Below are positions 1 through 21,665 of a stretch of 64,000 nucleotides of DNA, in pieces. This DNA comes from Spirodela intermedia. Taxonomy: Eukaryota; Streptophyta; Magnoliopsida; Alismatales; Araceae. The notes below the pieces were generated by a model. It was not told where the DNA came from and searched no databases. It saw only the letters and a program-made list of their open reading frames with translations. The stretch spans positions 7,501-71,500 of the forward strand of contig LR746265.1 of NCBI GenBank assembly GCA_902729315.2. The letters are read 5' to 3'. The number at the start of each line of letters is the position of its first letter. The first letter of the stretch is position 1. The position numbers were made by a program, and so were the translations under genes.

Positions 1-2
1 TT

Positions 3-2383: not shown

Positions 2384-2386
2384 ATC

Positions 2387-5300
2387 ATGATACCTAGCAT
2401 CATATGGAATTGTCGAGGTATAAGTAACCTCGAAACCCAATTCTATATAGCTAGCCTTATCAGACAGTATCGACTAGGTATAGTAGGCCTCATTGAGCCT
2501 ATGATATCATCAGATTGTATCCAACCTTTACTTAGGCGATTAGGTATGGATTATTTTCACTCCAACCCCACAAATCATATTTGGCTCTTTTGGACTAGAC
2601 CATACTCTATGGAGTTGCTAGTCGAGGGATCCCAGTATATCACTATGACGGTTCAAGATCTCACCCAAGAGTTCACCTTCTCGGTCATCTATGCATCACA
2701 TAGATCCGAAGAAAGGGAAACTCTTTGGGCGGACCTAGTTCAATACGTGAGGGACTACCCTACACTAGTTGAGTCTCCTTGGTACCTAGCAGGTGACTTC
2801 AACTGTGTTTGTAATACTAGTGAACGTCAAGGTGAGCGGATCCCTAGGGCCCGTAATATGGAGACGTTCAATGATTGTATTTTTCGATTAGCTCTTATTG
2901 AGCCACCTACATCAGGCGAGGTATGGACATAGAGCAACAATCGAGGGGACGCTTTGATCTATGAGCGTATCGATCGCTGTTTCATCAACAGTATCGCCAT
3001 GGTGCGACATCCCATATTAGTCACGATATTACCTCGTTATAGGTCAGATCACACCCCGATCCTCATACTCCCTAAACAGAGTATAAGCACTCACAGACCT
3101 CCCTTCAGATTTCAGATCATGTGGCTTCAACATGAAGACTTTCAAAGTTTCGTACGGAATCACTGGTACGGACATATCTCAGATTCTCCTATGGAGAACC
3201 TTAGCTATAGGTTAAGGAATCTCAAACTCTACCTTAAATGGTGGAACCGACATATCTATGGGAATGTCCATACTCAGGTTGATGCACTGCAAAAAGAGTT
3301 AGCAGAGGTTGAAAGACTACTGCAAGCTAGATATTTAAATGCTACTTGGGAAAAGAGGAGTAGAGTGAGAGACCAACTTGATGAGGTTGTGCGATGATAG
3401 GAGTTATTCTATCTCTAAAAATCACACATCTAGTGGTTACAAAAGGGTGATAGAAACACTCGTTTCTTTCATGCATCGGTCGCTCACCGCTCACATTCAG
3501 ATTATATCTCCCTTTTAGAGACATATGATCAGGACCTTTCTCGCATGCAGGAGGCAGGGGTTGAGTACTTTCGTACTTTCTTAACCTCTCAGCCGATCGA
3601 GATTTCTGATGATATGCTCACTTCGATCCCATCATTAGTCACTCACTATGAGAGCTCTCTCACGACGGTCATACCCACGAGAGAAGAGATCAAGGAAGTA
3701 GTTTTCTCTATGAGCAGACATTGTGCACCCAGGCCTAATGGTTTCCCAGCTGATTTTTATGTTTCATGTTGGGATATCGTTGGCACTGATCTCATCCAGG
3801 CTATCAAGGAAATCTTTCGTCGTAAAGTCTTTACATGAAGTTGGAAGGCCACCTTCCTTGCACTTATACCGAAAGTGACTACCCCAACTTCATTTAGAGA
3901 CTTTCGACTTATCAGTTTATGTAACGTGTGTTATAAAGTTGTATCTAAGATCGTTACACGTAGATTGAGTAGTTTCCTTGATAGACTTATATCTCTAGAG
4001 CAATGCGGATTTGTCAAGGGACGGTACATTCACGATAACATCATGCTAGTACATGAACTAACATAGTCCCTTGGCCATGACTGTCGAGGCTCCAACATCA
4101 TCATCAAATTAGACATAGAGAAGGCCTTTGATAGGATAGAGTAGAGTTTCCTCATTAAGGTTCTTAGATGCTTTGGGTTCACCAACGACTTCATTGACTT
4201 AGTCGATGCATGTGTTAGAGAGAATCACTTCTTTTTATTGGTGAATGGTAGCTCTACATCATTCTTCACGGCCACGAGACGTCTACGACAGGGCGATCCA
4301 CTATCACCCACCCTCTTCATTTTGGTCGAAGAAGTCCTCAGTCGATCCCTCACTCGAGCGATCAATCAAGGACTTATCCGACCATACTACTCGAAGAGGG
4401 GTTGTCTGATCATCTCACACTTCCTCTTTGCTGATGATGCGATACTCTTCCTCAATGGATGTGAGACATCCATTAGAGGGCTCATGAGTATTATCTCGAG
4501 GTATGAGCGAGTTGCAGGTCAACTCGTAAATGTCTCGAAGAGTAGCTTCATGGTAGGCCCTTCTACCCCCATAGGGACCATACGACGCATCCAGGGCCTA
4601 ACAGGGTTCTCTCATGGACACTTACCTTTTGAATATCTAGGATGTCTTATTTTCCTCGGCCGTAGGTGCATACACTATTTTGACGCCCTAGTGGGTAAGT
4701 TGAGGAAGAAATTAGCGGGATGGAAGTTACAACTTCTATCCCCTGGAGGACGGATTCAGTTGATACATCATGTCCTCATGAGCATGCCATTACACCTTTT
4801 GGCAGTCCATGAGGTACCAGACACCGTCTTACAGACTATTAGACGAATATGCACGTCCTTCCTTTGGGATGGACAACTTGAGGGACCTCGTCGCCAACGT
4901 CGAGTTTCTTGGGAGAAAGCATGTCGACCTACGGATGAGGATGGCCTAGGTATTCGGCGCCCTCAAGATGTACTCAACATGCTTCAAAAGAAACTCGTTT
5001 GGAGGATGAGGACCACACCATCGGTGCTAGGCTCTTTTGTGTCAACCAAATATGGTGAGTGGGCTCGACAGCCAACTGACATCAAAGGAGTCAAACGATG
5101 GGCAGACTGGCAGCGACATTGGTTAGAGATGATGCCCCTTATTCGTTGGCGAGTAGGGCGAGGCGCGATCAGTGCCTGGTACGACACTTGGTTAGAGGAC
5201 ACACCATTGGCCAATTTTACCACTTTCACATCCTCTTGGCCTCGCTTGACGGTAGCCCAACTTCTCCAAGGAGACACTCATCTACTTATTGAGAGGCATG

Positions 5301-6535
5301 GACTACCGTCGGACTTGTTACCAGCCATCACCATGACTGAGACGAGTTTTACAGAGGACCAACCCATCTGGACACTTACCGTAGATGGTAGTTTCTCTTG
5401 TAGCTCCTCTTGGGAGCACTTTAGAAACCGCTCCCCAAAGACATTTTGGGGAAATCTCATATGGCATCCAGCCATCACACCTCGTGTTTCGTTCTTCCTG
5501 TGAAAGTTCATGCACCGAGGACTACCCACCGACGATCGAGTGATTCTCACCGATCAAGAGGTGGAAAGGAGATGTCATTGTTGCTCCATCACGACGGACG
5601 AAAGCATGGAACATCTATTTTTCTATAGTGATATCGCTGTCGAGTGTTGGCGTCAACTTCTAGCAAATTGGCTTCCAATGCTCTCGTACAGACCTACGAG
5701 ACCACCACTATAGGTCTTTAGGAGAGTCATTGACTCACCGACGAGTGTCAAGCTTAGTCCCTTTATCCGTATCTCCATAGCATATATGTTATGGGAAATA
5801 TGGAAGGGACGTAACTCATCTCGATTTACAGGCCAAGTGATGCGTGTCACAAAGATTATGAGGCACATAACACAATGGCTTCGAAGTACTCATTCCTTAG
5901 TGCCAAACAAAACGAAACGCTCACGTTCTATTTGTGAAGCATTTGGGCTTTGGGGACTCCATATCATACCTACACAAACTTGGACTACTATCTGATCTGT
6001 TAGATGGACACCACCGAGGGTTGGGCAGTGGAAACTCAACGTCGATGGAGTATCTCAAGGTAACCCTGGACCATCTGGAGTAAGAGGTATTTTACGTGAT
6101 AGTACAAGATGCATTCTCTTTGTCTTTTCGAACTTTTATAATATACGAACTAATACTGAGGCAGAGGCTATAGTAATACGGGATGGTTTGCTTCTTTGTG
6201 AGGAGCAAAACATTACTAATATTGTCTTAGAATCTGATTCCGAAGTGTTAGTGGACATGTTACGTGCAGACTCTTGTCCTCATTGGAGGCTCAAGAATAT
6301 CTGGGTAGACATCATGCGATGCCGAGGACGCATCACAACCATTACGCATCAGTTCCGAGAAGGGAATCAGACAGCCGACGCCCTTGCTACGCATGGAGTC
6401 AGATCGCGTCGGAAGACAGTCTTCTTTTTTTGGCAAGACATGCCCATCGCAGCCCGAGGTGCTCATAGACTTGAGCGACTCGGCATACCCTCTTTACGCA
6501 TACACCGCACTCCACTACCGGCCCCTCCACGGTAG
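2387..6535 (+). pseudogene. LINE ORF2 remnant: APE endonuclease, reverse transcriptase, zf-RVT, RNase H (copy 1)
   Basis: Polyprotein that nicks target DNA and copies element RNA at the nick. Domains in order: APE-like endonuclease (WNCRGI at the start, GDFNC near 2800, SDHTPI near 3050), reverse transcriptase (about 3840-4700; GFVKGRYIHDN, KLDIEKAFDRI, RQGDPLSP, FADD near 4430), a zf-RVT Cys/His segment (about 5400-5690) and RNase H (about 6030-6400; LNVDG, TEAEA, ESDSE, REGNQTADALA). One frame is kept over 4.1 kb, with no frameshift that I can find, but about a dozen stop codons interrupt it (for example 2930, 3395, 3836, 4064, 4142, 5501). Most stops are explained by single C-to-T or G-to-A changes (CAG to TAG, CGA to TGA, TGG to TAG/TGA). 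Confidence 0.92.
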
Positions 6536-7876
6536 TGGCATATTGCTTGGAGGAGATCAAAGGTGGTTACTATTGGCCGCTGAAGACCACAATGGAGATA
6601 CAGGTACGTGTTTCCTTTGTTTCTATTTTCAGGTCTATCACAAGCCACAACCATGACATCATCATGGTGCTCATCTTATACCACCGATGTGGAATGCACT
6701 TTGCCTATCAACACAAGACAGACAACAAGGCATATCGTAATCCACTCGGGTACACTACTTCCAATCATTACTCTCTTTATAATCACCTCACATCTATTAT
6801 CTATCACCCCCAAGTAGTGAGGACATAGAACTATCAGCACATGTTGGCATCTGCCCACTTTTGAACTATAGGTCTATAGCACATCAGACCTGCCAAACTA
6901 GTTGTGAATCGTCAACCTAGCACCTCTCTCAAGATCTCATTAGTACCATCAGTCAGCTTGAACCTATGAGAAGAAAAGGATCTATATCCATAGGATTGAC
7001 CCTCTCTCTTCTCTCTCTCTCTTGATTCCCTATTTCTTTCTCCCTCCCTTTTTCTCTTTTTCTTAAAAAAAAGACAGCCTCCTTCTTTTCCCAAAATCAC
7101 TAGCCCATCATAGACAATTAGTGGAGGGTGAGGAAAAGGGCCCTCAAAAAAGCGAGCAACCTATTTCCTTTCCCCCAATCACTACACTCCAAAGGGAATT
7201 ACCCTTGTACACCAAATAATGGGCATTAGTGGAGGGTAAAAGAAGAGGCCCTCAAAAAAAAAAAAAAAAAAAAAAGAGAAAGAAGAGAGAGAGAATAAGA
7301 GAAAAGAAAAAGAGTTAGAAAAAGAGACCAAGTCATTCCTCGTGGGGTGAAAAGTTTCCTTACCTACTTAGAGGAAGTATGGCAACTGATGGTACTAACA
7401 AGATCTTGGCTAGAGGGATTAGACGCGTGAAACACTAGGAAGGCAAATTCATATTTGGGCTTATTGTCATACTCTAGCATAGTTCTATACTCCTCACTGT
7501 CTTAACAACTCTTTTCTCACCACTTTCTATCATTTTATTTCTTTCTTAGAACTACTTATTGCAGCAAATTCTTGTCTTGCAGCAACATCTCATGGTGCAC
7601 AACATGGAGGTTTACACGTCCTACTACTGTCAACCAGATATTCTAACTTCATGAACTCAAAAGCTCTTTCAGCCCAAATGCAGATCAACTGATTTCTTCA
7701 AATATGATGAGCGAACTGGAATCTATCTCTAGTATTATCACATCCCCTCTAAAAAAAGAGGTCTTTCACCCTCCATGTCATCCTCGCCCCTTGTGCGAAT
7801 GAGATCCCGCTTATGTAACCTCAGAATGAGGTCAAACTTTTATCACTCAATCAAATTTCTTCAAAAAAAAAAAAAA

Positions 7877-7894
7877 CCCTAAACCCTAAACCCT
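7877..7894 (+). repeat. Telomere-type CCCTAAA repeats at LINE copy 1 tail
   Basis: About 2.5 units of the plant telomere repeat begin immediately after the A-run of the LINE and end where the first 5S-type element remnant starts. The C-rich strand is the + strand. This is the first of a series of similar short linkers between elements. Confidence 0.9.
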
Positions 7895-8162
7895 CAAAGA
7901 ACGTGCCGAGAGGTACCCTTGCCACCATGCTGAAAGGTATATGTGGCATCTATCTCGCCATGCCAAGACGCTCCTAGCTCCGAAGAATGTGTTGAGAGGC
8001 ACCTCTGCCACGATGTCGAGAGGCGCAAGTGGCATCTATCTCCAAAGAATGTGACTAAGAGGCACCAAAGTGCTTGAGCGTGTGAAGTATTAGGATGGGT
8101 GACCTCATGAGAAGTTCGGCCCAAGACAGTTATAAAAAAAAAACCAAAAAAAAAAAAAAAAA
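7895..8162 (+). mobile_element. 5S-derived SINE-like unit S1 (head missing)
   Basis: Middle part and tail only. The middle consists of variants of the block with AAGAATGTG and GAGAGGCACC. The tail (about 8069-8132) matches the 3' half of plant 5S rRNA (GATGGGTGACCTC) and ends in GACAGTTAT plus an A-rich stretch interrupted by CC. Telomere-type repeats lie on both sides. The missing 5S head is what 5' truncation during reverse transcription would leave. Confidence 0.75.
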
Positions 8163-8172
8163 CCCTAAACCC

Positions 8173-8596
8173 AACCCCCCTTAGTGGGAGAGTTGCCACC
8201 GGATCCCATAAGAACTCCGGAGTTAAGCGTGCTCTCGAGTGGGAGCAGTCCCCGAATGGGTGACCTTCCTAGGAAGTCCCCGGGTTTGTGTGCATACGTT
8301 GCAAGACACTTGCTGTGCATGTGCTGAAAGGCACCGCTGCATGATCGTGCTGCCCAACATGTGTTATGAACCCCTCCGTCACTATGCCAAGATATCTTAA
8401 GCATCGAAGAACGTGCCAAGAGGCACCCCTGCCACCGTGGCGAGAGGCATATATGTGGCATCCATCTCACCATGCCAAGATGCCCCCAGCTCCAAAGAAT
8501 GTGCCTGAGAGGCACCAAAGTGCTTAGGCGTGTCAAGTATCAAAATGGGTGACCTCATGAGAAGTTCAGCCCAAGACAGTTATCAAAAAAAAAAAA
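8173..8596 (+). mobile_element. 5S-derived SINE-like unit S2 (complete architecture)
   Basis: Reference unit for the family. The head (8173-8290) follows 5S rRNA from about nucleotide 28 on (CACCGGATCCCAT, GAGTTAAGCGTGCT, GGGTGACC, GAAGTC), so it keeps the regions that act as internal pol III promoter in 5S genes. A middle part of about 200 bp contains TGTTATGAACCCCTC and CATGCCAAGATG blocks. The tail (about 8510-8580) is a second 5S-like segment. An A-run (8585-8596) and CCCTAAA follow. It codes for nothing; movement would need a LINE reverse transcriptase in trans. Confidence 0.82.
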
Positions 8597-8637
8597 ACCC
8601 TAAACCCTAAACCCAAAAAAAAAAAAAAAACCCTAAA
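8597..8637 (+). repeat. CCCTAAA repeats containing an orphan poly(A) tract
   Basis: Telomere-type repeats at 8597-8613, then 17 A residues (8614-8630) not attached to any element body, then CCCTAAA again. A tail with no body is the shortest possible product of tail-primed reverse transcription into a telomere repeat. A second orphan tract lies at 9230-9244. Confidence 0.75.
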
Positions 8638-8647
8638 CTCTAATAAC

Positions 8648-8949
8648 CTCCCTTAGTGGGAGAGTTGCCACCGGATCTCATAAGAACTTTGGAGTTAAGT
8701 GTGCTCGGGTGGGAGCAGTCCCCGAATGAGTGACCTCTCTGGTAAGTCCCCGGGTATGTGTGCATGCGTTGCGAGACGCTTGCTGTGCATGTGCTGAAAG
8801 GCACCCTTGCCACGATGTTGCCACCGGATCCAAAGAATGTGACTAAGAGGCACCAAAGTGCTTGAGCGTGTGAAGTATCAGGATGGGTGACCTCATGAGA
8901 AGTTCGGCCCAAGACAGTTATAAAAAAAAAACCAAAAAAAAAAAAAAAA
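8648..8949 (+). mobile_element. 5S-derived SINE-like unit S3
   Basis: A 5S-type head (8648-8765) is joined to a short middle part and a 5S-like tail (about 8840-8921). The A-rich end is interrupted by CC, as in S1. The middle is about 100 bp shorter than in S2: near 8810-8830 the sequence runs from GCCACGATG into a head-like GCCACCGGATCC and then into the tail block, which suggests a template jump or internal deletion. Confidence 0.78.
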
Positions 8950-8967
8950 CCCTAAACCCTAAACCCA

Positions 8968-9213
8968 ACCCCCCTTAGTGGGAGAGTTGCCACCGGATCC
9001 CATAAGAACTCTGGAGTTAAGTGTGCTCGGGTGGGAGCAGTCCCCAGATGGGTGACCTCCCTGGGAAGTCCCCGGGTTTGTGTGCATACGTTGTGAGACG
9101 CTTGCTGTGCATGTGTTGTCTGAGAGGCACCAAAGTGCTTCAGTGTGTGAAGTATCAGAATGGGTGACCTCATGAGAAGTTCAGCCCAAGACAGTTATCA
9201 AAAAAAAAAAAAA
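8968..9213 (+). mobile_element. 5S-derived SINE-like unit S4 (short form)
   Basis: A 5S-type head (8968-9085) is followed almost at once by the 5S-like tail (about 9118-9200) and an A-run. Nearly the whole middle part is missing. CCCTAAA stands on both sides (8950-8966 and 9214-9229). Confidence 0.78.
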
Positions 9214-9244
9214 CCCTAAACCCTAAACCAAAAAAAAAAAAAAA
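9214..9244 (+). repeat. CCCTAAA repeats followed by an orphan poly(A) tract
   Basis: About two telomere-type units (9214-9229), then 15 A residues (9230-9244), then directly the truncated unit S5 without a second telomere repeat. Compare 8597-8637. Confidence 0.7.
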
Positions 9245-9472
9245 CACATGTTATGAACCCTTCTGTCACCATGCCAAGATGCCTTAAGTATCGAAGAATG
9301 TGTTGAGAGGCATATATGTGGCATCCATCTCACCATGCCAAGATGCCCCCAGCTCCAAAGAATGTGTTTGAGAGGCATCAAAGTGTTTGGGCATGTGAAG
9401 TATCAGAATGGACGACCTCCTGAGAAGTTTGGCCCAAGACAATTATAAAAAAAAAACCAAAAAAAAAAAAAA
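9245..9472 (+). mobile_element. 5S-derived SINE-like unit S5 (head missing)
   Basis: Begins in the middle part (CACATGTTATGAACCC), runs through CCATGCCAAGATG blocks into the 5S-like tail (about 9378-9447) and ends in an A-rich tract with a CC interruption, followed by CCCTAAA at 9473. 5' truncated form. Confidence 0.75.
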
Positions 9473-9489
9473 CCCTAAACCTTGAACCC

Positions 9490-9752
9490 AACCCCTCTTA
9501 ATGGGAGAGTTGCCACCGGATCTCATAAGAACTTTGGAGTTAAGCGTGCTCTGGGAGTAGTCCCCGGATGGGTGACCTCCTTGAAAAGTCCTTAGGTTTG
9601 TGTGTATATATGGGTCACAATGCCAAGAGGTTGAGAAGCATCAAAGTGTTTGGGCGTGTGAAGTATGAGTGACCTCTTGAGAAGTATCAGGATGGGTGAC
9701 CTATTGAGAAGTTCGGCCTAAGATGGTTATCAAGAAAAAAAAAAAAAAAAAA
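9490..9752 (+). mobile_element. 5S-derived SINE-like unit S6
   Basis: A 5S-type head (9490-9600) with a small internal loss near 9550, an abbreviated middle part, and a tail in which the GGGTGACC segment occurs twice in tandem (about 9665-9715). A-run 9735-9752, then CCCTAAA. It is the last short element before LINE copy 2. Confidence 0.75.
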
Positions 9753-10410
9753 CCCTAAATGGTGAGAGGCACCAAAGAACTTTTTTCTCTCTCCTCACGA
9801 TCAGCGCAAATGGTGAGATCTCCTTCGTGTGACCTCAGATCGCGCTGAAACCTTTTCCATTCGATTCGGAAGGCCGACAGCTATCGGTTTCAAGCTATTA
9901 CGCATCGAAAACGCTGGATTAAAGCCTTTGTTTCGCAATTTCCTCATCGCGAAGGTACACTTCCAGAGTTTTCACTCCAAAGGTAATATCTTTCTATTGA
10001 CTGGGTGAAATTTAATTATTTTTAGTTCAATAGAATCGTATTTGCCTCGTTTACCATTTTCTCTTCTATATCATTTTTATTTGATGCTTAGCTGATAAGT
10101 AGCTCACAGATTCCATCGGGTGACCTCCGTCGCCCAGATGAAAACTCGCCCGACGAATGCGAGCGAACATAAGGCCGACACGTGGCAGTAACGGCCTCCT
10201 GTCCTCGCCTTCTCTCTCCGCCGGTTGATGTGACCGAGAAGACGGCCGTAAATGAGCTGCAACGGTTGAACCACGGACGTCCGTGATTCGACATCAGCTG
10301 GCGTCTTCCCGAGGCCGGAATCGGGGACAGCAGTCGACGCCGTCCACTCTCCCTCCGGGAACGAGGCGACGGCAGGCGAAGAGGCCCCCTCTGATCCAAC
10401 CATTGATCGT

Positions 10411-12954
10411 ATGATCAATGGTCAGAATCAGCCGGCTATAAAGGCCTCAACAGCCGTTACCGAGGCTCCGCCCTCGGACGGTCACGGCCATAACGGCCAA
10501 CTTGATCCAACCGTTGATCTTGAGATCAACGGAGGGGATCACGTGGCCATAAAGGCGCCGCAACCTTTTGCGATCGCCGATGCCTCGGCTGGGACGCTAC
10601 TGACGTCATCAACGTCAGACACCGCGGACGATGGCTCGCCATCACGGGCCGAGCCCCGCTCAGCTGGCACCGTACAGGCGCGGCCCGTGCGAGCCTCCGG
10701 CAAGGTGGCTAGAGCTGAGCCGGCCCAGGTAGCGTCATCTGAGGCCGCTTTAGCCCAGGCCATGCCGGCCCAGCCCATCGAGGCTGCGCCGGCTCAGGAC
10801 GCACCGGCCCAGGCCCAGGTGGCCCAGGCCGAGCCTGAGCAGCCGGCTCAGGCTGCACCTGTCCAAGCTCTTGCCCAGGTAAGGGGCAACAGCCTGCGGC
10901 CCAAAAAGAAGATAGGACGCCGACTTTTACGTCCACCCTCGACCACGTCCTCTAGGCCTACCCCGAGTCAACAGATTGAGCCGGTTTTACCTCTACCTAT
11001 AAGGGCCCTTAGGCTCTCTCAGATTGAGCCCCTCAAACCAACTAGGATCCCAGCACTAGTTGAGACCTCTATATTGGCCCCAAACACATCTCTTGGGCAC
11101 ACCATATCTACACCTAGTGGGCTAGACTCTACTGTGCCCCATAGGCCAAACCCGACTATGCCCACTAGACACCTATCATGGGCGCAACGAGTGTTTGGAC
11201 CTTCTGCCCCCTCGATAGAGACTGTCACACCACAAGAACCGCTGCGTCAGGTACTATTCCCATTCTATGACACCACTGTCCCAGTGCGAAGCTATAGTGA
11301 GGATGATGGGAGGAAGACAATAGCTTTTACTTATGAGGAGGTCTCCCAGATGGTAACCACATTCCAATATACCTTAGTTGGTCGTTTCATTACGAAACGA
11401 CCAACTATAGGTGACATAGAGAAGATTTACTTGGCACTTGGAAATTTCCAGGGCTGAGTCTCCATCAGAGCTCGAGACTATCGTAGCATATACATCCGCT
11501 TTGAGCTAGAAGTGGATTATCGTCGAGCATGGAGCCGACCCACTTGGACAATGGGGGAGTCTACCCTCCATACCCACAGATGGACACCACAGATCGACAT
11601 AGGGCACCGAGCACATCAATCCCATGCGGTTCCATTATGGGTGGGCTTCCCTGGCCTACCTGCCCATTTATTTACGCCAAAGGCACTTGAGTCTTTGGCA
11701 AATGCGGTGGGAACATTCATATGCCTTGACCCAGGCATAAAAATGTTCAACCGGCCAGGATATGTACGAGTTTGTATAGAGGTGGACCTAATGGCCCCTC
11801 TACAGAGGACTCTCGTTATACGTAGTGGAGATGATGAGCTTTATCAGCCTATTATTTACGAGAGATTACCATATTTCTACACACATTGTGCTATCTTGGA
11901 CCACACTGTCAGCACATGTCGTCAAAAGGTAGGTACACCACAAGCAACCACACGAGCCTTTTTAGTACCGATCTCATATGATGATTATCTCGTCGAAATG
12001 AGAAAGGATGCTCAGAGTGCTCGTCATCCTCAGAGGTCGATTGCCCCTATGGCGGCTCCACCTTCCTTACCTCGGAAGGCACAGGAAAAGCCTAGTTCAT
12101 TGATTGAGACACAGCATGCATGGCGAAAGTCGGCAGCTGGACGCCCTTCTTCCATCCATACATGGGAGAAGAAAGGAACACGAGAGGCTACACCTTCCCC
12201 TTTAGGCAAGGGAAAGAAACCCCTAACCTCAAACACCTTTGAGGTCTTAGAGGCTTTAGATGAGAGAGACTTTGAGGGACCTGCACAGAGGGGAACTAGG
12301 CCTTCCAAAGGGCTAGCATCCCCCACTACGAGGGACTCACCTAATCAAACTCCACATACTAGATCCCCCCGGGCTATCTGACCCCCCATACTCACCCACC
12401 CCACTCCACCCATTAGTGTCTCTCCACCACCCAGCTCCTCCCCGCCCATTTGCTCTTCCCCACATAGCAGGAGCCCTTCACCTCTTAGTCCCCACCGACT
12501 GAGGTCTACCCCTTTCTCTGAGGGTATCGGCTTGGGCACTATCCATCCCCCTCAAATCCCCGTCGAGGATCTACTATGAGGGCCTACCCCCAGCACACTT
12601 CCTATTAGTACATCTTACGTAGCCCCCCGTTCTGATTCTTATACCCTCCCCCCCTCTCCCCCACTACACCCACCAGATCAGTTCCTTATACTTGATCCAC
12701 CACCCGCTGATTCTAGGGAGAGCCCCGATAGAAGACAGTGCTTGACGAATCGTCAAGCACCGCACCCATCCTCCTCATCTAGTGCTCATGATACTAGTGG
12801 CCACATGACTAGTACCCATGAGAATGGTGGATCTGAGACTGACATTGAGACTACCTACCTAGATGAGGGATATCAAACGGAGGCTAAGACCACACGACTC
12901 ACTAGATGCTCACCTTACTCCACGAGATCTAGGACTCGTGGGGCCAATCATTAG
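10411..12954 (+). pseudogene. LINE ORF1 remnant, copy 2
   Basis: Same domain order as copy 1, with the N-terminus included: MINGQNQPAIKAS, an Ala/Gln/Pro-rich region, DUF4283 (about 11310-11630), a zinc-knuckle-like segment near 11880-11930 in which the first Cys is Tyr (YTHC..), and a Pro/Ser-rich C-terminal part. The frame stays open upstream of this ATG to about 10286 but holds no other ATG. One frame is kept throughout; TGA at 11455-11457 (shared with copy 1), TGA near 12379 and TGA near 12577 interrupt it. The frame ends in TAG three bases before the ORF2 start. Confidence 0.85.
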
Positions 12955-12957
12955 ATC

Positions 12958-13657
12958 ATGATACTTAGCATCATATAAAATTGTCGAGGTATAGGTCACC
13001 TCAAAACCCAATTCTATATAGCTAGCCTTATCAGATAGTATCGACTAGGTATAGTAGGCGTCATTGAGCCTATGATATCATCAGATCGTATCCAACCTTT
13101 ACTTAGGCAATTAGGTATGGATTATTTTCACTCCAACCCCACGAATCATATTTGGCTCTTTTGGACTAGACCATACTCTATGGAGTTGCTAGTCGAGGGA
13201 TCCCAGCATATCACTATGACGGTTCAAGATCTCACCCAAGAGTTCACCTTCTCAGTCATCTATGCATCACATAGATCCGAAGAAAGGAAAACTCTTTGGG
13301 CGGACCTAGTTCAGTATGTGAGGGACTACCCTACACTAGTTGAGTCTCCTTGGTACCTAGCAGGTGACTTCAACTGTGTTTGTAATACTAGTGAACGTCA
13401 AGGTGGGCGGATCCCTAGGGCCTGTAACATGTATTTTTCAATTATTGTTCGTAATCACAACCATTACGCATCAATTTCGAGAAGGGAATCAGATAGCCGA
13501 CGCCCTTGCTACGTATGGAGTCAGATCACATCGGAGGACAATCTTCTCTTTTTGGCAGGACATACCCCTTGCAACCCGAGGTGCTCATAGACTTGAGCGA
13601 CTCGGCATACCCTCTTTACGCATACACCGCACTCCACTATCGGCCCCTCCACGGTAG
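12958..13657 (+). pseudogene. LINE ORF2 remnant with deleted reverse transcriptase, copy 2
   Basis: The first part is endonuclease (GDFNC near 13370), although the early Trp of WNCRG is replaced by a stop codon. At about 13430 the sequence leaves the endonuclease, passes about 23 bases that match neither flank well, and continues in the RNase H C-terminal part (FREGNQIADALA) in a different frame. The zf-RVT and reverse transcriptase segments are absent. Confidence 0.85.
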
Positions 13658-15029
13658 TGGCGTATTACTTGGAGGAGATCAGGGGTGGTTATTATTGGCC
13701 AATGAAGACCACAATGGAGATACAGGTACGTGTTTTCTTTGTTTCTGTTTTCAGGTCTATCACAAGCCACAACCATGACATCATCATGGCGCTCATCACA
13801 TACCACCGATGTGGAATGCAATTTGCCTATCAACACAAGATGGACAACAAGGCACATCGTAATCCACCCGGGTACACTACTTCCAATCATTACTCTCCTC
13901 ATAATCACCTCACATCTATTATCTATCACCCTCAAGTAGTAAGGACATAGAACTATCAGCACATGTTGGCATCTGCCCACTTTTGAACTATAGGTCTATA
14001 GCACATCAGACTTGCCAAACTAGTTGTGAATCGCCAACCTAGCACCTCTCTCAAGATCTCATTAGTACCATCAGCCAGCTTGAACCCATGAGAAGGGAAG
14101 GATCTATATCCATAGGATTGACCCTCTCTCTTCTCCCTCTCTCTCGATTCTCTATTTCTTTCTCCCTCCCTTTCTCTCTCTTTAAAAAAAAAAAAAAAAA
14201 AAAAGAGACAGCTTACTTCTTTTCCCGAAATCACTAGCCCATCATAAACAATTAGTGGAGGGTGAGGGAAAGGGCCCTCAAAAAAAAAAAAAAAAAAGCG
14301 AGCAACCTATTTCCTTTCCCCCAATCACTAGACTCCAAAGGGAATTACCCTTGTACACCAAATAATGGGCATTAGTGGAGGGTAAAAGAATAGGCCCTCA
14401 AAAAAAAAAAAAAAAAAAAAAAGAGAAAGAAGAGAGAGAGAATAAGAGAAAAGGAAAAGAGTTAGAAAAAGAGACCAAGTCATTCCTCGTGGGGTGAAAG
14501 GTCCCTTACCTACTTAGAAGAAGTACGACAACTAATGGTACTAACAAGATCTTGGCCAGAGGGACTAGACGTGTGCAACACTAAGAAGGCAAATTTATAT
14601 TTGGGCCTATCGTCATACTCCAGCATAGTTCTATCCTCCTCACTGTCTTAACAACTCTTTTCTCACCACTTTATATGATTTTATTTATTTCTTAGAATCA
14701 CTTACTACGACAAATTCTTGTCTTGCAGGAACATCTCATGGTGCACAACATGGAGGTTTACACGTTCTACAACAGTCAACTAGATATTCCAACTTCATGA
14801 ACTCAAAAGCTCTTTCAGCCCAAATGCAAACCAACCGACTTCTTCAAATATGATGAGCGAACTGGAGTCTATCTCCAATATTATCACATACCCTCTAAAA
14901 AAAGAGGTCTTTCACCCTCCATGTCATCCTCACCCCTTGTGTGAATGAGATCCCACTTATGTAACCTCAGAATGAGGTCAAACTTTTATCACTCAATCAA
15001 ATTTCTTCATTTAAAAAAAAAAAAAAAAA

Positions 15030-15402
15030 CCCCTTAGTAGGAGAGTTGCCACCGGATCTCATAAGAACTCCGAAGTTAAGCGTGCTTGGGTGAGAGTAGT
15101 CCCCGGATGGGTGACCTCCCTAGGAAGTCCCCGGGTACATGTGCATGTGTTGTGAGACGCTTGTTGTTATGAACCCCTCCGTCATTATGCCAAGATGCCT
15201 TGAGCATCGAAGAACGAGAGGCACGCCTGCCACCATGGCGAGAGGCATATATGTGGCATCCATCTCACCATGCCAAGATGCCCCCAGCTCTAAAGAATGT
15301 GCCTGAGAGGCACCTAAGTGCTTGGGCGTGTGAAGTATCAAGATGGGTGACCTCTTGAGAAGTTCAGCCCAAGACAATTATCAAAAAAAAAAAAAAAAAA
15401 AA
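15030..15402 (+). mobile_element. 5S-derived SINE-like unit S7
   Basis: Starts with CCCCTTAGTAGGAGAG directly at the A-run of LINE copy 2, without a full CCCTAAA unit in between. A well-kept 5S head (15046-15150; GAGTAGTCCCCGGATGGG), a middle part of about 160 bp, a 5S-like tail (about 15310-15380) and an A-run (15383-15402). Confidence 0.8.
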
Positions 15403-15438
15403 CCCTAAACTCTGAACCCTAAAACCCTGAACCCTAAC

Positions 15439-15903
15439 CCCCCTTAGTGGGAGAGTTGTCACCGAATCCCATAAGAACTCACGAGTTAAGCGTGCTCGGG
15501 TGGGAGCCATCCCCGGATGGGGGACCTCCCTAGGAAGTCCTCGGGTACGTGTGCATGCATTGCGAGCTTGTTGTGCATGTGCTGAAAGGCACCACTACAT
15601 GATTGTGTTGCCCAGCACGTGTTATGAATCCCTCTGTCACCATGCCAAGATGCCTTAAGCATCGAAAAACATGCCGAAAGGCTATTCTGTCACCATGCTC
15701 CCAGCTTCGAAGAATGTGCCGAGAGGCTATTCTGCCACCATGCCGAGAGGCATATATGTGGCATCCATCTCACCATGCCAAGATGCCCCCAGCTCCAAAG
15801 AATGTGCCTGAGAGGCACCAAAGTGTTTGGGCGTGTGAAGTATTAGGATGGGTGACCTCTTGAGAAGTTCAGCCCAAGATAGTTATCAAAAAAAAAAAAA
15901 AAA
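15439..15903 (+). mobile_element. 5S-derived SINE-like unit S8 (long form)
   Basis: 5S head (15439-15560), a full middle part of about 240 bp with three CATGCC-type blocks, 5S-like tail (about 15815-15887) and A-run. Degenerate telomere repeats precede it (15403-15438) and follow it (15904-15953). Confidence 0.82.
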
Positions 15904-15953
15904 CCCTAAACCCTAAACCATAAACTCTAAACCCTAAAACCTTGAACCCTAAC
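15904..15953 (+). repeat. Degenerate CCCTAAA linker
   Basis: The longest telomere-type linker in the array, about seven units, several with single-base changes (CCATAAA, CTCTAAA, CCTTGAA). The decay suggests this junction is not recent. Confidence 0.85.
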
Positions 15954-16200
15954 CCCCCTTAGTGGGAGAGTTGTCACCAGATCTCATAAGAATTCCAGAG
16001 TTAAGCGTACTCGGGTGGGAGCAGTCCCAAGATGGGGGACCTCCCTAGGAAGTCCTCGGGTACGTGTGCATGCATTGCGAGATGCTTGTTGTGCATGTGC
16101 TGAAAGGCACCGCTGCATGATCGTGCTGCCCAGCATGTGTTATGAATCCCTCCGTCACCTGAGAAGTTCGGCCCAAGATAGTTATCAAAAAAAAAAAAAA
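15954..16200 (+). mobile_element. 5S-derived SINE-like unit S9 (internally deleted)
   Basis: 5S head and the start of the middle part (to about 16158), then an abrupt switch into the last part of the tail (GAGAAGTTCGGCCCAAGA) and an A-run. Most of the middle and the 5S-like part of the tail are absent. CCCTAAA-type repeats follow at 16201-16220. Confidence 0.78.
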
Positions 16201-16220
16201 CCCCTAAAACCCTAAACCCC

Positions 16221-16869
16221 CGTGCTTTCGAGGGCTCCTCCCTCTTTCATCCGTTCGGTTCTCTTGGTCCTTATTCCTCTATTTTCCGATGGCTGCTCCC
16301 GATGTTGAGTTACGTTGCTTCGTCGAGTCGAAGGTTATCAATGACCGAGAGACCGGAAGGTCCAAGGGCTTTGGCTTCATGACCTTTAGCAATGAGCAGG
16401 TGATGAACGATGCCATCAAGGGGATGAATGGCCAGGATCTGGACGGCAGGAGCATCACTGTCAACCAGGCCCAGTCCCGAGGCAGCGGTGGCTTCCGCAG
16501 CGGCAGCGGTGGCTACGGCGGGCAACACCGCGAGGGCGGTGGCTACAGCCGCGAAGGCGGTGGTGGTGGCGGCTACAGCCACGGCAGCGGGCGCGACCGT
16601 GGTTACGGCGGCGGATTTGACCACTTCTCCAGGGGCCAGGACAGTGGCTCGAACGGGTACTAGAGGAGCTGAGGCCAGTCCTGACGTGGTCTGGTTTTTA
16701 TCTTTATCGAGGTTCTTGTTCTTGATCGTTTCCATGTTCCTCCTTCCCCCAGGTTTGTCTCTACATTGTTCCCTGCACCGATCCACCTGCCCCCTGTCAT
16801 GTACGATTGCCAACAGTCCACAGACAGGATGCCAATGAATCAATCTTATCCAAAAAAAAAAAAAAAAAA
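16221..16869 (+). mobile_element. Processed retrocopy of a glycine-rich RNA-binding protein mRNA
   Basis: A cDNA-like insert with a 5' UTR (16221-16288), an ORF, a 3' UTR and an A-run (16852-16869), bounded on both sides by CCCTAAA repeats (16201-16220, 16870-16886). No intron is seen although plant GR-RBP genes have one inside the RRM. It lies in the same orientation as the LINEs and 5S units, so it looks like an mRNA copied in trans by the LINE machinery. Whether it is transcribed is unknown; no promoter came with it beyond the 5' UTR. Confidence 0.88.
16289..16663 (+). CDS. Retrocopied glycine-rich RNA-binding protein, truncated RRM (124 aa)
   Basis: Begins MAAPDVELRCFV and ends in a Gly/Ser/Tyr-rich tail, as in the GRP7/GRP8 family of RNA chaperones that act in RNA processing and cold response. 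RNP1 is kept (KGFGFMTF, about residues 33-40) and so is GMNGQDLDGRSITVNQAQSR. After RCFV the protein goes straight to ESKVIND: about 22 residues are missing in frame, comprising the rest of RNP2 and the first helix of the RRM, so the fold is unlikely to bind RNA normally. The ORF has no stop codon and ends SNGY. It may be an intact-looking pseudogene or a short expressed protein. Confidence 0.65.
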   Translation: MAAPDVELRCFVESKVINDRETGRSKGFGFMTFSNEQVMNDAIKGMNGQDLDGRSITVNQAQSRGSGGFRSGSGGYGGQHREGGGYSREGGGGGGYSHGSGRDRGYGGGFDHFSRGQDSGSNGY

Positions 16870-16889
16870 CCCTAAACCCTAAACCTTCT

Positions 16890-17416
16890 TAACCTCTCTT
16901 AGTGGGAGAGTTGCCACCGGATCCCATAAGAACTCCAAAGTTAAGTGTGCTTGGGTGGGAGCAGTCCCCTAATGGGTGACCTCCCTAGGAAGTCCCTGGG
17001 TATGTGTGCATGCATTGCGAGACGCTTGCTGTGCATGTGCTGAAAGGCACCACTGCATGATCGTGCTGCCCAGCACGTGTTATGAACCCCTCTGTCACCA
17101 TGCCAAGATGCCTTGAGCATCGAAGAACGTGCCGAGAGGCACCCTTGCCACCATATCGAAAGGTATATGTGGCATCCATCTCACCATGCCAAGATGCTCC
17201 TAGCTCCGAAGAATGTGCCGAGAGGCCATCCTGCCACCATGCCGAGAGGCATATGTGGCTGAGAGGCACCCCTACCACAATGTCGAGAGGTGCAAGTGGC
17301 ATCTATCTCCAAAGAATGTGCCTGAGAGGCACCAAAGTGCTTGGGCGTGTGAAGTATCAGGATGGGTGACCTCTTGAGAAGTTCAGCCAAAAATAGTTAT
17401 CAAAAAAAAAAAAAAA
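16890..17416 (+). mobile_element. 5S-derived SINE-like unit S10 (long form)
   Basis: 5S head (16900-17010), a long middle part with several CATGCC/GAGAGGC blocks, 5S-like tail (about 17333-17400) and an A-run to 17416. CCCTAAA repeats stand on both sides (16870-16886, 17417-17444). Confidence 0.82.
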
Positions 17417-17444
17417 CCCCTAAACCTTAAACCCTAAACCCTAA

Positions 17445-17542
17445 GTCCCTTCGGGGACATCTGATAAAATTGGAATGATACAAAGAAGATTAGCATGGCC
17501 CCTACGCAAGGATGACATGCACAAATCGAGAAATGGTCCAAA
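17445..17542 (+). ncRNA. U6 snRNA retrocopy (pseudogene) inside telomere-type repeats
   Basis: Starts at the exact 5' end of U6 (GTCCCTTCGGGGACATC) and runs to GAAATGGTCCAAA, so it is full length apart from the U-tail. Compared with the conserved plant U6 from memory I see five differences, all C-to-T or G-to-A, including ACAGAG to ACAAAG in the box that pairs with the 5' splice site, so it should not work in splicing. There is no USE/TATA promoter upstream, only CCCTAAA repeats (17417-17444); repeats follow directly as well (17543-17558). It is a reverse-transcribed copy and not a U6 gene. Confidence 0.92.
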
Positions 17543-17558
17543 CCCTAAACCTTAAACC

Positions 17559-17962
17559 CCCTTTAGTGAGAGAGTTGCCACCGGATCTCATAAGAACTCC
17601 AGAGTTAAGCATGCTCGGGTGGGAGCACTCCTCAAATGGGTGACCTCCCTAGGAAGTCCTCAGGGATGTGTGCATGCATTGTGAGTGAGACGCTTGTTGT
17701 GCATGTGTTGAAAGGCACTGTTGCATGATCGTGCTGCCCAGCATGTGTTACGAACCCCTCTGTCACCATGCCAAGGTGCCCCCAGCTTCAAAGAACGTGC
17801 CGAGAGGCACCCCTACCACGATGTCGAGAGGTACAAGTGGCATCTATCTCCGAAGAATGTGCTTAAGAGGCACCAAAGTGCTTGGGTGTGTGAAGTACTA
17901 GGATCGGTGACCTCCCAAGAAGTTTGGTCTAATACAGTTATCATAAAATTATAAATAAAAAA
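17559..17962 (+). mobile_element. 5S-derived SINE-like unit S11
   Basis: 5S head (17563-17675), middle part of about 160 bp, 5S-like tail (about 17870-17935), then an A/T-rich end (ATAAAATTATAAATAAAAAA) instead of a clean A-run, followed by CCCTAAA. Less well preserved than S8 or S10. Confidence 0.78.
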
Positions 17963-17971
17963 CCCTAAAAA

Positions 17972-18788
17972 CCCCCCTTAGTGGGAGAGTTGCCACTAGA
18001 TCCCATAGGAACTCCCGAGTTAAGCGTGCTCAGGTGAGAGCAGACCTTAGATGGGTGATCGTGCTGCCCAACATGTGTTACGAACCCCTCTATCACCATG
18101 CCAAGATGCATTGAGCTTCGAAGAACGTGCCCAGAGGCACCCCTACCACCATGACGAGAGACATATATGTGGCATCCATCTCACCATGCCAAGATGCCCC
18201 CAACTCCAAAGAACCTCTAGAGAGGCACCCCTGCCAAGATGCCCCCAGCATTGCTAGACGCTTGTTATGCATGTGCTGAAAGGCACCGCTGCATTATCGT
18301 GCCGCCAGGCATGTGTTACAAACCACTCTGCCTTTATGCCAAGATGCCCCCAGCTCCAAAGAACGTGCTAAGAGGCACCCCTACCACCATGTCGAGAGGC
18401 ATATGTGGCATCCATTTCACCATGCCAAGATGCCCCTAGCTTCAAAGAACGTGTTGAGAGACACCCCTGCCACCATACCGAGAGGCATATGTGGCATCAT
18501 CTCACCATGCCAAGATGCCCTTAGTTTCGAAAAATGTGTTGAGAAGCACCCCTACCATCATGCCGAGAGGCATATGTGGCATTCATCTCACCATGCCAAG
18601 ATGCCCCCAGCTCCGAAGAACATGCCGAGAGGCACCCCTGCCACTATGCCGAGAGGTGCTAGTGGCATCTATCTCTGAAGAATGTGTCTCAAAGGCACCA
18701 AAGTGTTTGGCTGTGTGAAGTATCAGGATGGGTGACCTCTTGAGAAATTCGACCCAAGATAGTTATCAAAAAAAATACCCAAAAAAAT
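17972..18788 (+). mobile_element. 5S-derived SINE-like unit S12 (expanded middle part)
   Basis: 5S head shortened (17972-18060, ending inside the GGGTGATC segment), a middle part expanded to about 600 bp, and a 5S-like tail (about 18700-18767). The expansion comes from tandem copies of an 86-bp block. A second CACCGCTGCATTATCGTG segment near 18283 suggests an internal duplication or two nested units. Confidence 0.75.
18336..18680 (+). repeat. Tandem 85-86 bp repeat inside S12
   Basis: Four copies starting ATGCCAAGATGCCC at 18336, 18422, 18507 and 18593 (spacing 86, 85 and 86). Each contains AAGAACGTG-, GAGAGGCACCCCT- and GAGAGGCATATGTGG-type segments. The same block occurs once or twice in S1, S2, S8 and S10, so copy number of this block sets the length of the units. 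Confidence 0.88.
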
Positions 18789-18791
18789 AAC

Positions 18792-19026
18792 ATTATCATA
18801 CCGCCAGGCACGTCTTATGCACCCCTCCACCACCATGCCAAGATGCCCCCAGCTCCAAAGAATGTGCTGAGAGACACCCTTGTCGAGAGGCGCTAGTGGC
18901 ATCTATCTCCGAAGAATGTGCCTAAGAGGTACCAAAAGTGCTTGGGTGTGTGAAGTATCAAGATGGGTGACCTCCTGAAAAGTTCAGCCCAAGATAGTTA
19001 TCCTAAAAGTTAAAAAAAAAAAAAAA
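18792..19026 (+). mobile_element. 5S-derived SINE-like unit S13 (head missing)
   Basis: Begins in the middle part (ATCATACCGCCAGGCACG), continues to the 5S-like tail (about 18940-19004) and an A-run to 19026. A degenerate CCTAAACCGTAAAT follows. This is the last recognisable unit of the main array. Confidence 0.72.
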
Positions 19027-19040
19027 CCTAAACCGTAAAT

Positions 19041-21254: not shown

Positions 21255-21302
21255 GCACTTAACTCTCCCACTTAACTCGAGTTCTTATGGGATCTTGTGG
21301 CA
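21255..21302 (-). mobile_element. 5S-element head fragment in reverse orientation
   Basis: Read on the - strand it gives TGCCACAAGATCCCATAAG and GAGTTAAGTGGG, the 5S-type head of the short elements. It is followed on the + strand by CCCTAAACCCTAAACC (21303-21318). It is the one clear exception to the uniform + orientation of the array. Confidence 0.65.
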
Positions 21303-21318
21303 ACCCTAAACCCTAAAC

Positions 21319-21525
21319 CATTGAAAAACAAGGTATCCATTCATAAGAAATGTGGAACAAGCTGTTCGCGTAGTTGTTCTTAGTTAGGTTGAATTCGTTG
21401 CCTTTCTTTCTATTTTTGCTAGTAAAGTGCTTTTCCCCTCTCAATAAATGTACTTTGGTGTTCTCACATGTGACAGGAGTTGCTTGTTGTAATTTTCCCT
21501 TTGGTTCTAAATAAAAAATAAAAAA
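21319..21525 (+). mobile_element. Unidentified A-tailed insert between telomere-type repeats
   Basis: About 200 bp starting ATTGAAAAACAAGG and ending in an A-rich tract (AAATAAAAAATAAAAAAAATT), with CCCTAAA-type repeats on both sides (21303-21318; about 21530-21560). It has the look of an mRNA 3' end. I do not recognise the source. Confidence 0.5.
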
Positions 21526-21559
21526 AATTAAAAACCTTAAACCCTAAAACCCTGACCCT

Positions 21560-21665
21560 CACAAGTGGGTGAGTCATCATGAAGTGGAAAAGTAAAATCT
21601 ATAGTTAAGTGTGCACAAGTAGAACCACTCTAAAGTCTCTACTTGGCGAACCCAAAACCAACCCA
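21560..21665 (+). mobile_element. Decayed 5S-element head
   Basis: After CCTTAAACCCTAAAACCCTG the sequence reads CACAAGTGGGTGAGTCATC and then ATAGTTAAGTGTGCACAAG, recognisable as the 5S-type head with many changes. No tail is seen. Confidence 0.5.

Follow-up and report, generated by a model that had tools for sequence, protein, structure and literature searches.

Reverse-transcribed RNAs stacked between telomere repeats near chromosome ends of the duckweed Spirodela intermedia

A 64,000-nucleotide stretch of the Spirodela intermedia genome (contig LR746265.1, hereafter C2, positions 7501–71500; "the window") carries a one-way array of reverse-transcribed RNAs lying between telomere repeats. 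Two copies of a long interspersed nuclear element (LINE), 13 3' ends of a short interspersed nuclear element (SINE), a copy of U6 small nuclear RNA (snRNA) and a copy of a spliced mRNA of the glycine-rich RNA-binding protein (GRP) type all have their 3' ends inward, that is, facing the chromosome interior (the opposite is called outward), and CCCTAAA runs join most of these inserts. A sequence-only reading had described the two LINEs, the SINEs, the U6 copy and the mRNA copy as lying on the + strand with their 3' ends to the right; sequence analysis and genomic comparisons confirmed this layout, and the arrangement proved wider than first noted. Near chromosome ends, CCCTAAA runs enclose copies of one LINE lineage, of a SINE whose head resembles 5S and, occasionally, of U6 or a spliced mRNA, with 3' ends inward. 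We consider it probable that the array belongs to a chromosome end that lengthens as L1-type elements retrotranspose into its native telomere repeat, in a plant that retains telomerase.

The genome analysed was a single assembly of 136.5 Mb in 32 contigs, in which C1–C18 are each at least 3.8 Mb and C19 is 154 kb; L and R after a contig name denote its left and right ends. The window starts 7.5 kb from the end of C2, and gene-like open reading frames (ORFs) appear from about 31 kb of the window rightward, so the chromosome end lies to the left, in agreement with the earlier proposal of a subtelomeric array with its left side distal. A position was counted as near an end within 60 kb for the junction motif, 75 kb for LINEs detected through the zf-RVT domain and 100 kb for SINE rows; the outer 75 kb of the 18 contigs make up 2.0% of their sequence. 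The LINE and SINE match searches scored part of the candidates, and their counts are among the matches listed; the zf-RVT census scored all 147. Split copies were kept as separate rows in the LINE match lists, and a block common to C1R and C6R was counted twice unless stated.

The junction of an A run with CCCTAAA, singled out in the sequence-only reading, recurs throughout the genome. Poly(A) followed by CCCTAAACCC (searched as A8CCCTAAACCC) was found 77 times, and its reversed control not once; among the 74 junctions placed on chromosome-sized contigs, 67 lie less than 60 kb from an end and face inward, one faces outward and six are interior. The zf-RVT census gave 110 LINE matches, 63 of them in the outer 75 kb: 57 are inward, six outward, 45 interior (24 on the minus and 21 on the plus strand) and two unplaced, and four of the six outward matches represent two loci in the C1R/C6R common block. 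LINE 3'-end rows (42) comprise 25 inward at ends, one outward and 16 interior, and the first 59 of 112 reverse transcriptase (RT) rows comprise 38 inward, three outward, 16 interior and two unplaced. For the SINE (155 matches), the first 56 of the rows listed divide into 46 inward, five outward and five interior; with the C6 copy of the common block removed, the remaining 50 divide into 42, three and five. Every one of the 36 contig ends has a LINE, a SINE or a junction within 75–100 kb. Copies elsewhere in random sequence, which would have told against the sequence-only reading had they predominated, are thus a minority.

The junctions are also fixed in phase: 42 of 51 rows (44 with the addition of two script-shifted rows) stand in the CCCTAAA phase, compared with 4/7 expected (p ~1e-5, the rows being not all independent). 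This set, like a linker set of 73 rows considered below, was drawn from fetched stretches; both contain a small number of interior or doubtful A runs, and in both some interrupted tails appear as two rows. Fixed position and orientation within the repeat, of the kind known from the silkworm elements TRAS and SART, were therefore observed (67 of 68 near-end junctions inward; 42–44 of 51 in one phase). Insertion almost exclusively into the telomere repeat, as expected of a telomere-specific LINE in the TRAS/SART sense, was not, as 16 of the 42 3'-end rows and 45 of the 110 zf-RVT matches are interior. Chance as the source of the array is ruled out by the empty junction control, by the counts of potential sites per strand given below and by CCCTAAACCCTAAA, which with at most one mismatch matches the window 16 times, always on the + strand, where 0.05 matches are expected.

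Several terminal tracts could be followed to the contig end. The element directly under such a tract is a SINE at C4R and a LINE with a truncated 5' end at C11L; SINEs at C3R and C16R hold the same place only if the intervening 334 and 163 bases are telomeric, and a truncated LINE lies under the terminal tract at C12L (tract read in part). Other ends differ: C13L has a 1-kb tract and then unassigned sequence, and at C8R the tract is preceded by GACAGGGACG sequence. At C9L (L018, from 1380) a CCTGGG-type tandem repeat lies under the terminal tract, and the SINE array of this end shows many single-base losses resembling uncorrected read errors. Telomere repeat closes nine of the 18 right contig ends and is missing from the tips of the other nine; C9 and C11, the two left contig ends that were readable, start with it. 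According to the S. intermedia genome paper, all 18 pseudomolecules have telomeric sequence at both ends (PMC7645714). The discrepancy at nine right ends, the error-rich look of C9L and the presence of one end block on both C1 and C6 could be taken to mean that repeat-rich ends were misjoined in assembly. We find an artefact scarcely credible, because many ends show the junction in differing surroundings, the spliced-mRNA and U6 junctions are clean, and long reads and fluorescence in situ hybridization (FISH) are reported in the genome paper (PMC7645714).

The domains of the LINE point to an element of plant L1 type. A Pfam scan of seven window ORFs gave RVT_1 in the left copy, LINE A (7.7e-11), and DUF4283 in the right copy, LINE B (5.5e-16), with three ORFs lacking a match; Exo_endo_phos (4e-4), zf-RVT (6e-5) and CCHC matches in these broken copies fell below the Pfam cut-off, and zf-RVT stood well above it in other genomic copies. 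A predicted ORF1 with DUF4283 and CCHC, a putative AP-type endonuclease (Exo_endo_phos was scanned in the window copies), RT and zf-RVT together match a plant L1-type element, and the L1 hallmarks of poly(A), 5' truncation and 10–20 bp target duplications are present. Of five 5'-truncated copies (four interior and one outward on C16), four have target duplications of 13–15 bp and the fifth has none.

CCCTAAA follows the 3' end in none of 17 interior or outward LINE 3'-end rows (14 independent; four have one flank in common), and the linkers adjoin LINE, SINE, U6 and mRNA inserts alike, which upholds the earlier view that they are target and not part of any element. Four interior copies with nearly the same 3' flank (C2:8531585, 8579909, 8600149 and 8756306) probably represent one insertion within another dispersed repeat. 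A further interior LINE 3' end, at C6:5653534 (L099; 79% over 87 bases), was found through the junction motif and is followed by two telomere repeats; at C11:952752 (L100) an interior poly(A) tail likewise borders on two CCCTAAA repeats, and beyond the repeats at both loci the DNA is unrelated. The two may be small interstitial telomere sites or the result of repeat addition in repair. The 25 inward 3'-end rows represent 23 copies, and among the 19 with a readable 3' end, 15 pass into telomere repeat (a single repeat in one case).

Interior and near-end copies do not separate on the tree. In a tree of 27 LINE 3' ends, 14 labelled interior (among them C16:50852, which is outward, and one of the four common-flank copies) and 13 labelled end by position are intermixed, with at least seven label changes, three of them forced by strong branches. 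Two tight clusters of four rows each hold near-end copies only. A separate telomere-only LINE lineage finds no support in the tree, and one of the eight clustered near-end rows (C6:11491, L069) has no telomere repeat after it. The LINE lineage prefers telomeres and is not telomere-specific, since it also occupies interior sites that carry target duplications. The earlier idea of a telomere-targeting system thus survives as a preference (67 of 74 junctions inward at ends), and the interior copies argue against exclusivity.

Open zf-RVT frames of at least 600 aa number 16, of which 13 are inward near ends, two interior and one unplaced, and all four placed stop-free frames of 1399 aa lie near ends. 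A LINE that inserts without preference and survives only at gene-poor ends would account for the concentration of these frames and for interior copies at ordinary sites, but leaves unexplained both the single orientation (57/63 zf-RVT matches, 67/68 junctions) and the CCCTAAA 3' junction. As sole cause, passive accumulation is contradicted by orientation and junctions and is very improbable; it may add to the enrichment.

In the mechanism we favour, the LINE endonuclease would nick between T and A, preferably at TT/A. Nicks deduced from six clear duplications (TTT/AGA, CTT/ACA, GAT/ATA, CTT/AGA, CTT/AGA and GTT/AAC) are T/A in six of six, TT/A in five and TT/AGA in three, with each position uncertain over the length of its A run. 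In the telomere the nick site would occur on the G-rich strand only, as TTT/AGGG, every seven bases: TTTA sites number 143 per kb on the telomeric G-strand and 0 on the C-strand, compared with 4–5 per kb per strand in window 31–64 kb. The freed TTT 3' end would pair with the A tail of any RNA bound by LINE protein; with U6, priming would take place at an internal AAA, leaving out the U tail. Synthesis of cDNA would run outward, setting the 5' end distally and creating a poly(A)–CCCTAAA junction. A T/A nick site on one telomere strand only would thus explain the one orientation, the A–CCCTAAA junction and the trans-mobilised RNAs. Telomerase, for which the genome holds a TERT RNA-binding domain (109 bits, no stops), would keep or re-extend the distal tract and so supply the next target. 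Insertions into telomeres presumably harm no gene and copies would accumulate there, where most long open LINE frames are found, and later duplications would rearrange older parts of the stack.

Several observations weigh against this mechanism. Besides the ambiguity of the nick positions, target duplications are not visible inside the repeats, the endonuclease match in a broken window copy lies under the Pfam cut-off, three of the 19 readable inward LINE copies have no telomere repeat after the 3' end and one has a degenerate repeat, and the two interior open frames are 735 and 1089 aa long. Signs of exchange, described below, belong here too: a duplication within the window, identical LINE 3' ends at C14R and C5L, and a regular SINE array at C9L. 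Lastly, the linkers are short: their median is 23.5 bp in 68 complete rows, 61 of which do not exceed 60 bp, whereas insertion at random into a tract of at least 0.7 kb would be expected to give linkers hundreds of bases long. The two A44 tails and the A38 tail, the longest of all, adjoin linkers of 33, 29 and 22 bp respectively; the A32 tail that ranks after them adjoins one of 221 bp. In 45 junctions hand-chosen from the 73 rows, tail and linker length gave a Spearman coefficient of 0.17 (p 0.26), and in the absence of a correlation decay with age was rejected as the cause of the short linkers. Some shortening with age is likely: linkers above 60 bp, the longest of at least 226 bp, occur with seven of 20 tails of A20 or more and with one of 25 shorter tails. 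Either the base of the tract is favoured, or tracts are short when hit, or another mechanism is at work, namely priming on a bare end followed by re-extension by telomerase.

In the last case, ends would be extended alternately by telomerase, which adds a small number of TTTAGGG repeats up to a terminal TTT, and by LINE RT, which primes without a nick on the G-strand 3' TTT of critically short ends with any A-rich RNA, so that the linkers would be short telomerase additions. We regard such alternation as possible, though doubtful. It would account for the brevity of the linkers even beside A38–A44 tails; orientation and junction phase fit it equally, the joining of U6 at AAA, minus its U tail, agrees with annealing through a terminal TTT, TERT is present, and the outermost elements at C4R and C11L (and those at C3R and C16R, if the 334 and 163 bases are telomeric) adjoin the terminal tract. 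However, the ordinary target duplications of the same family elsewhere indicate that nicking suffices, eight of the 45 hand-chosen linkers exceed 60 bp, seven of these with adjacent tails of at least A20, and no free end was observed. The phases of the 5' junctions, few and varied, favour neither nicking nor end priming. Were the alternation true, the chromosome ends would keep a continuing record of cellular RNAs, and a flowering plant would possess a functioning mixed telomere, intermediate between those of silkworm and Drosophila.

The stacks also bear the marks of exchange, both among different ends and within single ones. Window positions 8041–8335 and 8829–9131 are 92% alike, junction included, so that some junctions are not independent insertions. 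C1:11382877-11466831 and C6:10086231-10170165 show the same LINE/SINE matches at a constant offset and share the same last 1.5 kb, reflecting either a real exchange or one end assembled twice. LINE 3' ends at C14R and C5L are identical over 692 bases, and the C9L SINE array is regular, with near-equal linkers. These features could suggest that a few ancient insertions were copied among ends by unequal exchange or break-induced copying and that the one-way layout was simply inherited. As a general account this is unlikely: the U6 and mRNA copies occur near an end only in this window, the elements that border on telomere repeat at C11L, C12L and C10L are truncated at different points, and the other window self-matches listed (at least 80% and 250 bp) are only 80–87% alike. 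A single tandem-duplicated block, the other outcome that would have undone the sequence-only reading, fails as the whole story and was retained for the one local duplication. On C1, about 350–380 kb inside the right end, LINE and SINE copies, some of them CCCTAAA-linked, occupy 11083206-11118327 (L097, L104 and L105); this interior block is perhaps a former chromosome end.

The SINE resembles 5S rRNA at its head, weakly so in any one copy. Six heads in the array match Rfam 5S_rRNA (RF00001) at E values between 6e-5 and 0.25; none reaches the gathering score, which the best misses by 0.3 bits. Of the roughly 13 5S-derived elements first described, the 13 3' ends were recovered and the 5S likeness is seen in these six heads. 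Isolated interior SINEs show a 19-bp duplication at C9 4.737 Mb, a 13-bp one at C4 7.715 Mb, a short one at C11 0.548 Mb and none clear at C18 1.187 Mb; the fifth interior locus fetched, at C1 11.106 Mb, proved to be a telomere-linked array in its own right. The poly(A) end and the target duplications suggest that the SINE would be mobilised by the LINE. The telomere repeat was rejected as a part of the SINE; two interior SINEs (L094 and L096) begin at ACCCCCCTTA(C/G)TGGG with no repeats before it, and the repeats also adjoin other inserts.

The U6 copy (94.5 bits; Rfam match 17445–17547) begins at the first base of U6 and reads GGTCCAAACCCTAAACC, with GGTCC and then AAACCCTAAACC; the two other U6 loci that were fetched read GGTCCAAATTTTTTT in one case and GGTCCATTGTTTG / GGTCCATTG in the other. 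The source gene of the mRNA copy, C3:5282205-5283014, is 94–97% identical to it. A 95-bp intron (GTACTG...CTGCAG) is exactly absent from the copy, which is a further 69 nt short in the coding sequence and follows the gene up to CAATCTTATCC, then passes into A18 and CCCTAAA where the gene continues; with the intron precisely absent and a poly(A) that the gene does not have, the insert is a processed retrocopy. The U6 and mRNA searches gave nine and seven match rows genome-wide. Near the right end of C18 (4495050-4495500, L131), unassigned sequence with A17 is followed by three CCCTAAA repeats and is perhaps another mRNA retrocopy.

Telomere-invading LINEs are already known elsewhere; the angiosperm host and the mixed cargo appear new. 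Zepp of Chlorella vulgaris, likened here by description only, is a LINE of the green lineage at chromosome ends, as in the duckweed, and lies in TTTAGGG telomeres with its poly(A) facing inward; we know of no SINE, U6 or mRNA cargo of Zepp. Its host is a green alga, and in Coccomyxa Zepp clusters are mostly interior, one per chromosome and probably centromeric (PMC3446292). A 2023 list of telomere-located LINEs names, in its accessible part, insects, fungi, Giardia, rotifers, a lizard and one green alga, and Zepp1 of Chlorella is its only Viridiplantae element (PMC10088271). No land-plant case of retroelements among telomere repeats was found in the open-licence literature, as far as its accessible text goes; most subscription papers and bioRxiv-only preprints lie outside this scope. 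A barley paper was discarded as a plant precedent, since the "telomere-specific LINE" of the part available is that of Drosophila (PMC5738225). The accessible text of the S. intermedia genome paper describes LINEs as a minor fraction, and no mention of LINEs at telomeres was found in it (PMC7645714).

The R1-family elements TRAS1 and SART1 of Bombyx mori are LINEs that invade telomere repeats, as here. TRAS1 inserts and cuts between T and A of the TTAGGG repeat (PMC2868851), and this is the step inferred for the duckweed LINE. TRAS and SART are, by contrast, sequence-specific insect elements that lie in opposite orientations, as stated in the 2023 list (PMC10088271), and the duckweed LINE is of plant L1 type with many interior sites. 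HeT-A, TART and TAHRE of Drosophila form LINE end stacks, as here, with the 3' end of HeT-A inward; the likeness to HeT-A/TART and SART/TRAS drawn in the sequence-only reading holds for the end stacks and breaks down over the opposite orientations of TRAS and SART, and nicking explains as much as end priming. The Drosophila elements are said to use the 3' OH of the chromosome end (PMC5738225); such priming would fit the orientation and short linkers, and nicking fits them too. Drosophila lacks telomerase, according to the same list (PMC10088271), whereas S. intermedia has a TERT domain, TTTAGGG tracts (telomere repeat at nine of 18 right ends and at C9L and C11L) and interior insertions, and its repeat is not replaced. 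MoTeR of Pyricularia and FoTeR of Fusarium are retrotransposons in or at telomeres, but of fungi. Human-type L1 RT can prime on dysfunctional telomere ends independently of its endonuclease in cultured mutant cells; the duckweed arrangement is a standing genome-wide feature.

A small plant genome assembled from long reads, with such elements at all 36 contig ends and a TERT domain present, makes it possible to study experimentally, in a fast-growing plant, how retrotransposons come to inhabit telomeres or to serve them. The proposed rule is simple, in that the plant repeat would offer a LINE nick site on one strand only, and it predicts both orientation and junction. Other plant subtelomeres may carry such stacks unannotated.

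Within the window, all inserts and linkers lie on the + strand. LINE A (1..7862), identified as a plant L1-type copy by Pfam scan and self-comparison, has its 5' part cut by the window start and contains ORF pieces at 120-890, 1757-2383, 2387-2932 (endonuclease-like) and 4238-5503 (RT, zf-RVT). It ends at 7862 in A14 and CCCTAAACCCTAAACCC, the poly(A) and CCCTAAA linker filling 7863..7897. Six SINE 3' ends follow (7898..9752), with tails from 8134, 8585, 8922, 9200, 9447 and 9735; the units are partly 5'-truncated and separated by poly(A)/CCCTAAA. A single CCCTAAA (9753..9759) connects the last of these tails to LINE B (9760..15012), which is 97% and 92% identical to LINE A and lacks about 3.45 kb of it (A 2879–6331, including the RT ORF), with the break at 13448/13454. 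The first ~17 bases of LINE B (window 9753–9790) resemble SINE sequence (GGTGAGAGGCACCAAAG), possibly the trace of a template jump at the end of cDNA synthesis. The LINE B tail (15013–15029) adjoins a SINE without a full telomere repeat, so that the claim of CCCTAAA between nearly all inserts holds for most of them; this tail and three SINE units, with tails from 15383, 15888 and 16187 and linkers starting at 15403, 15904 and 16201, make up 15013..16215. The processed mRNA copy (16216..16851; source-gene comparison, RRM_1 3e-11) is followed by poly(A)18 and a CCCTAAACCCTAAACC linker (16852..16888), a SINE unit with a 5S-like head and poly(A)15 (16889..17416) and a CCCTAAA linker (17417..17444). 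The U6 copy runs to GGTCC (17445..17539), the next AAA belonging to U6 or to the linker, and a AAACCCTAAACCTTAAA linker lies 3' of it (17540..17556). Internally repeated SINE units, with 3' ends at about 17943, 18768 and 19002, occupy 17557..19026, the final poly(A) (19012–19026) being followed by CCTAAACC. Weak last traces of the array continue to about 21.6 kb of the window (21301..21600), with CCCTAAACCCTAAA at 21304, A8 at 21520 and CCTTAAACCCTAAA at 21535.

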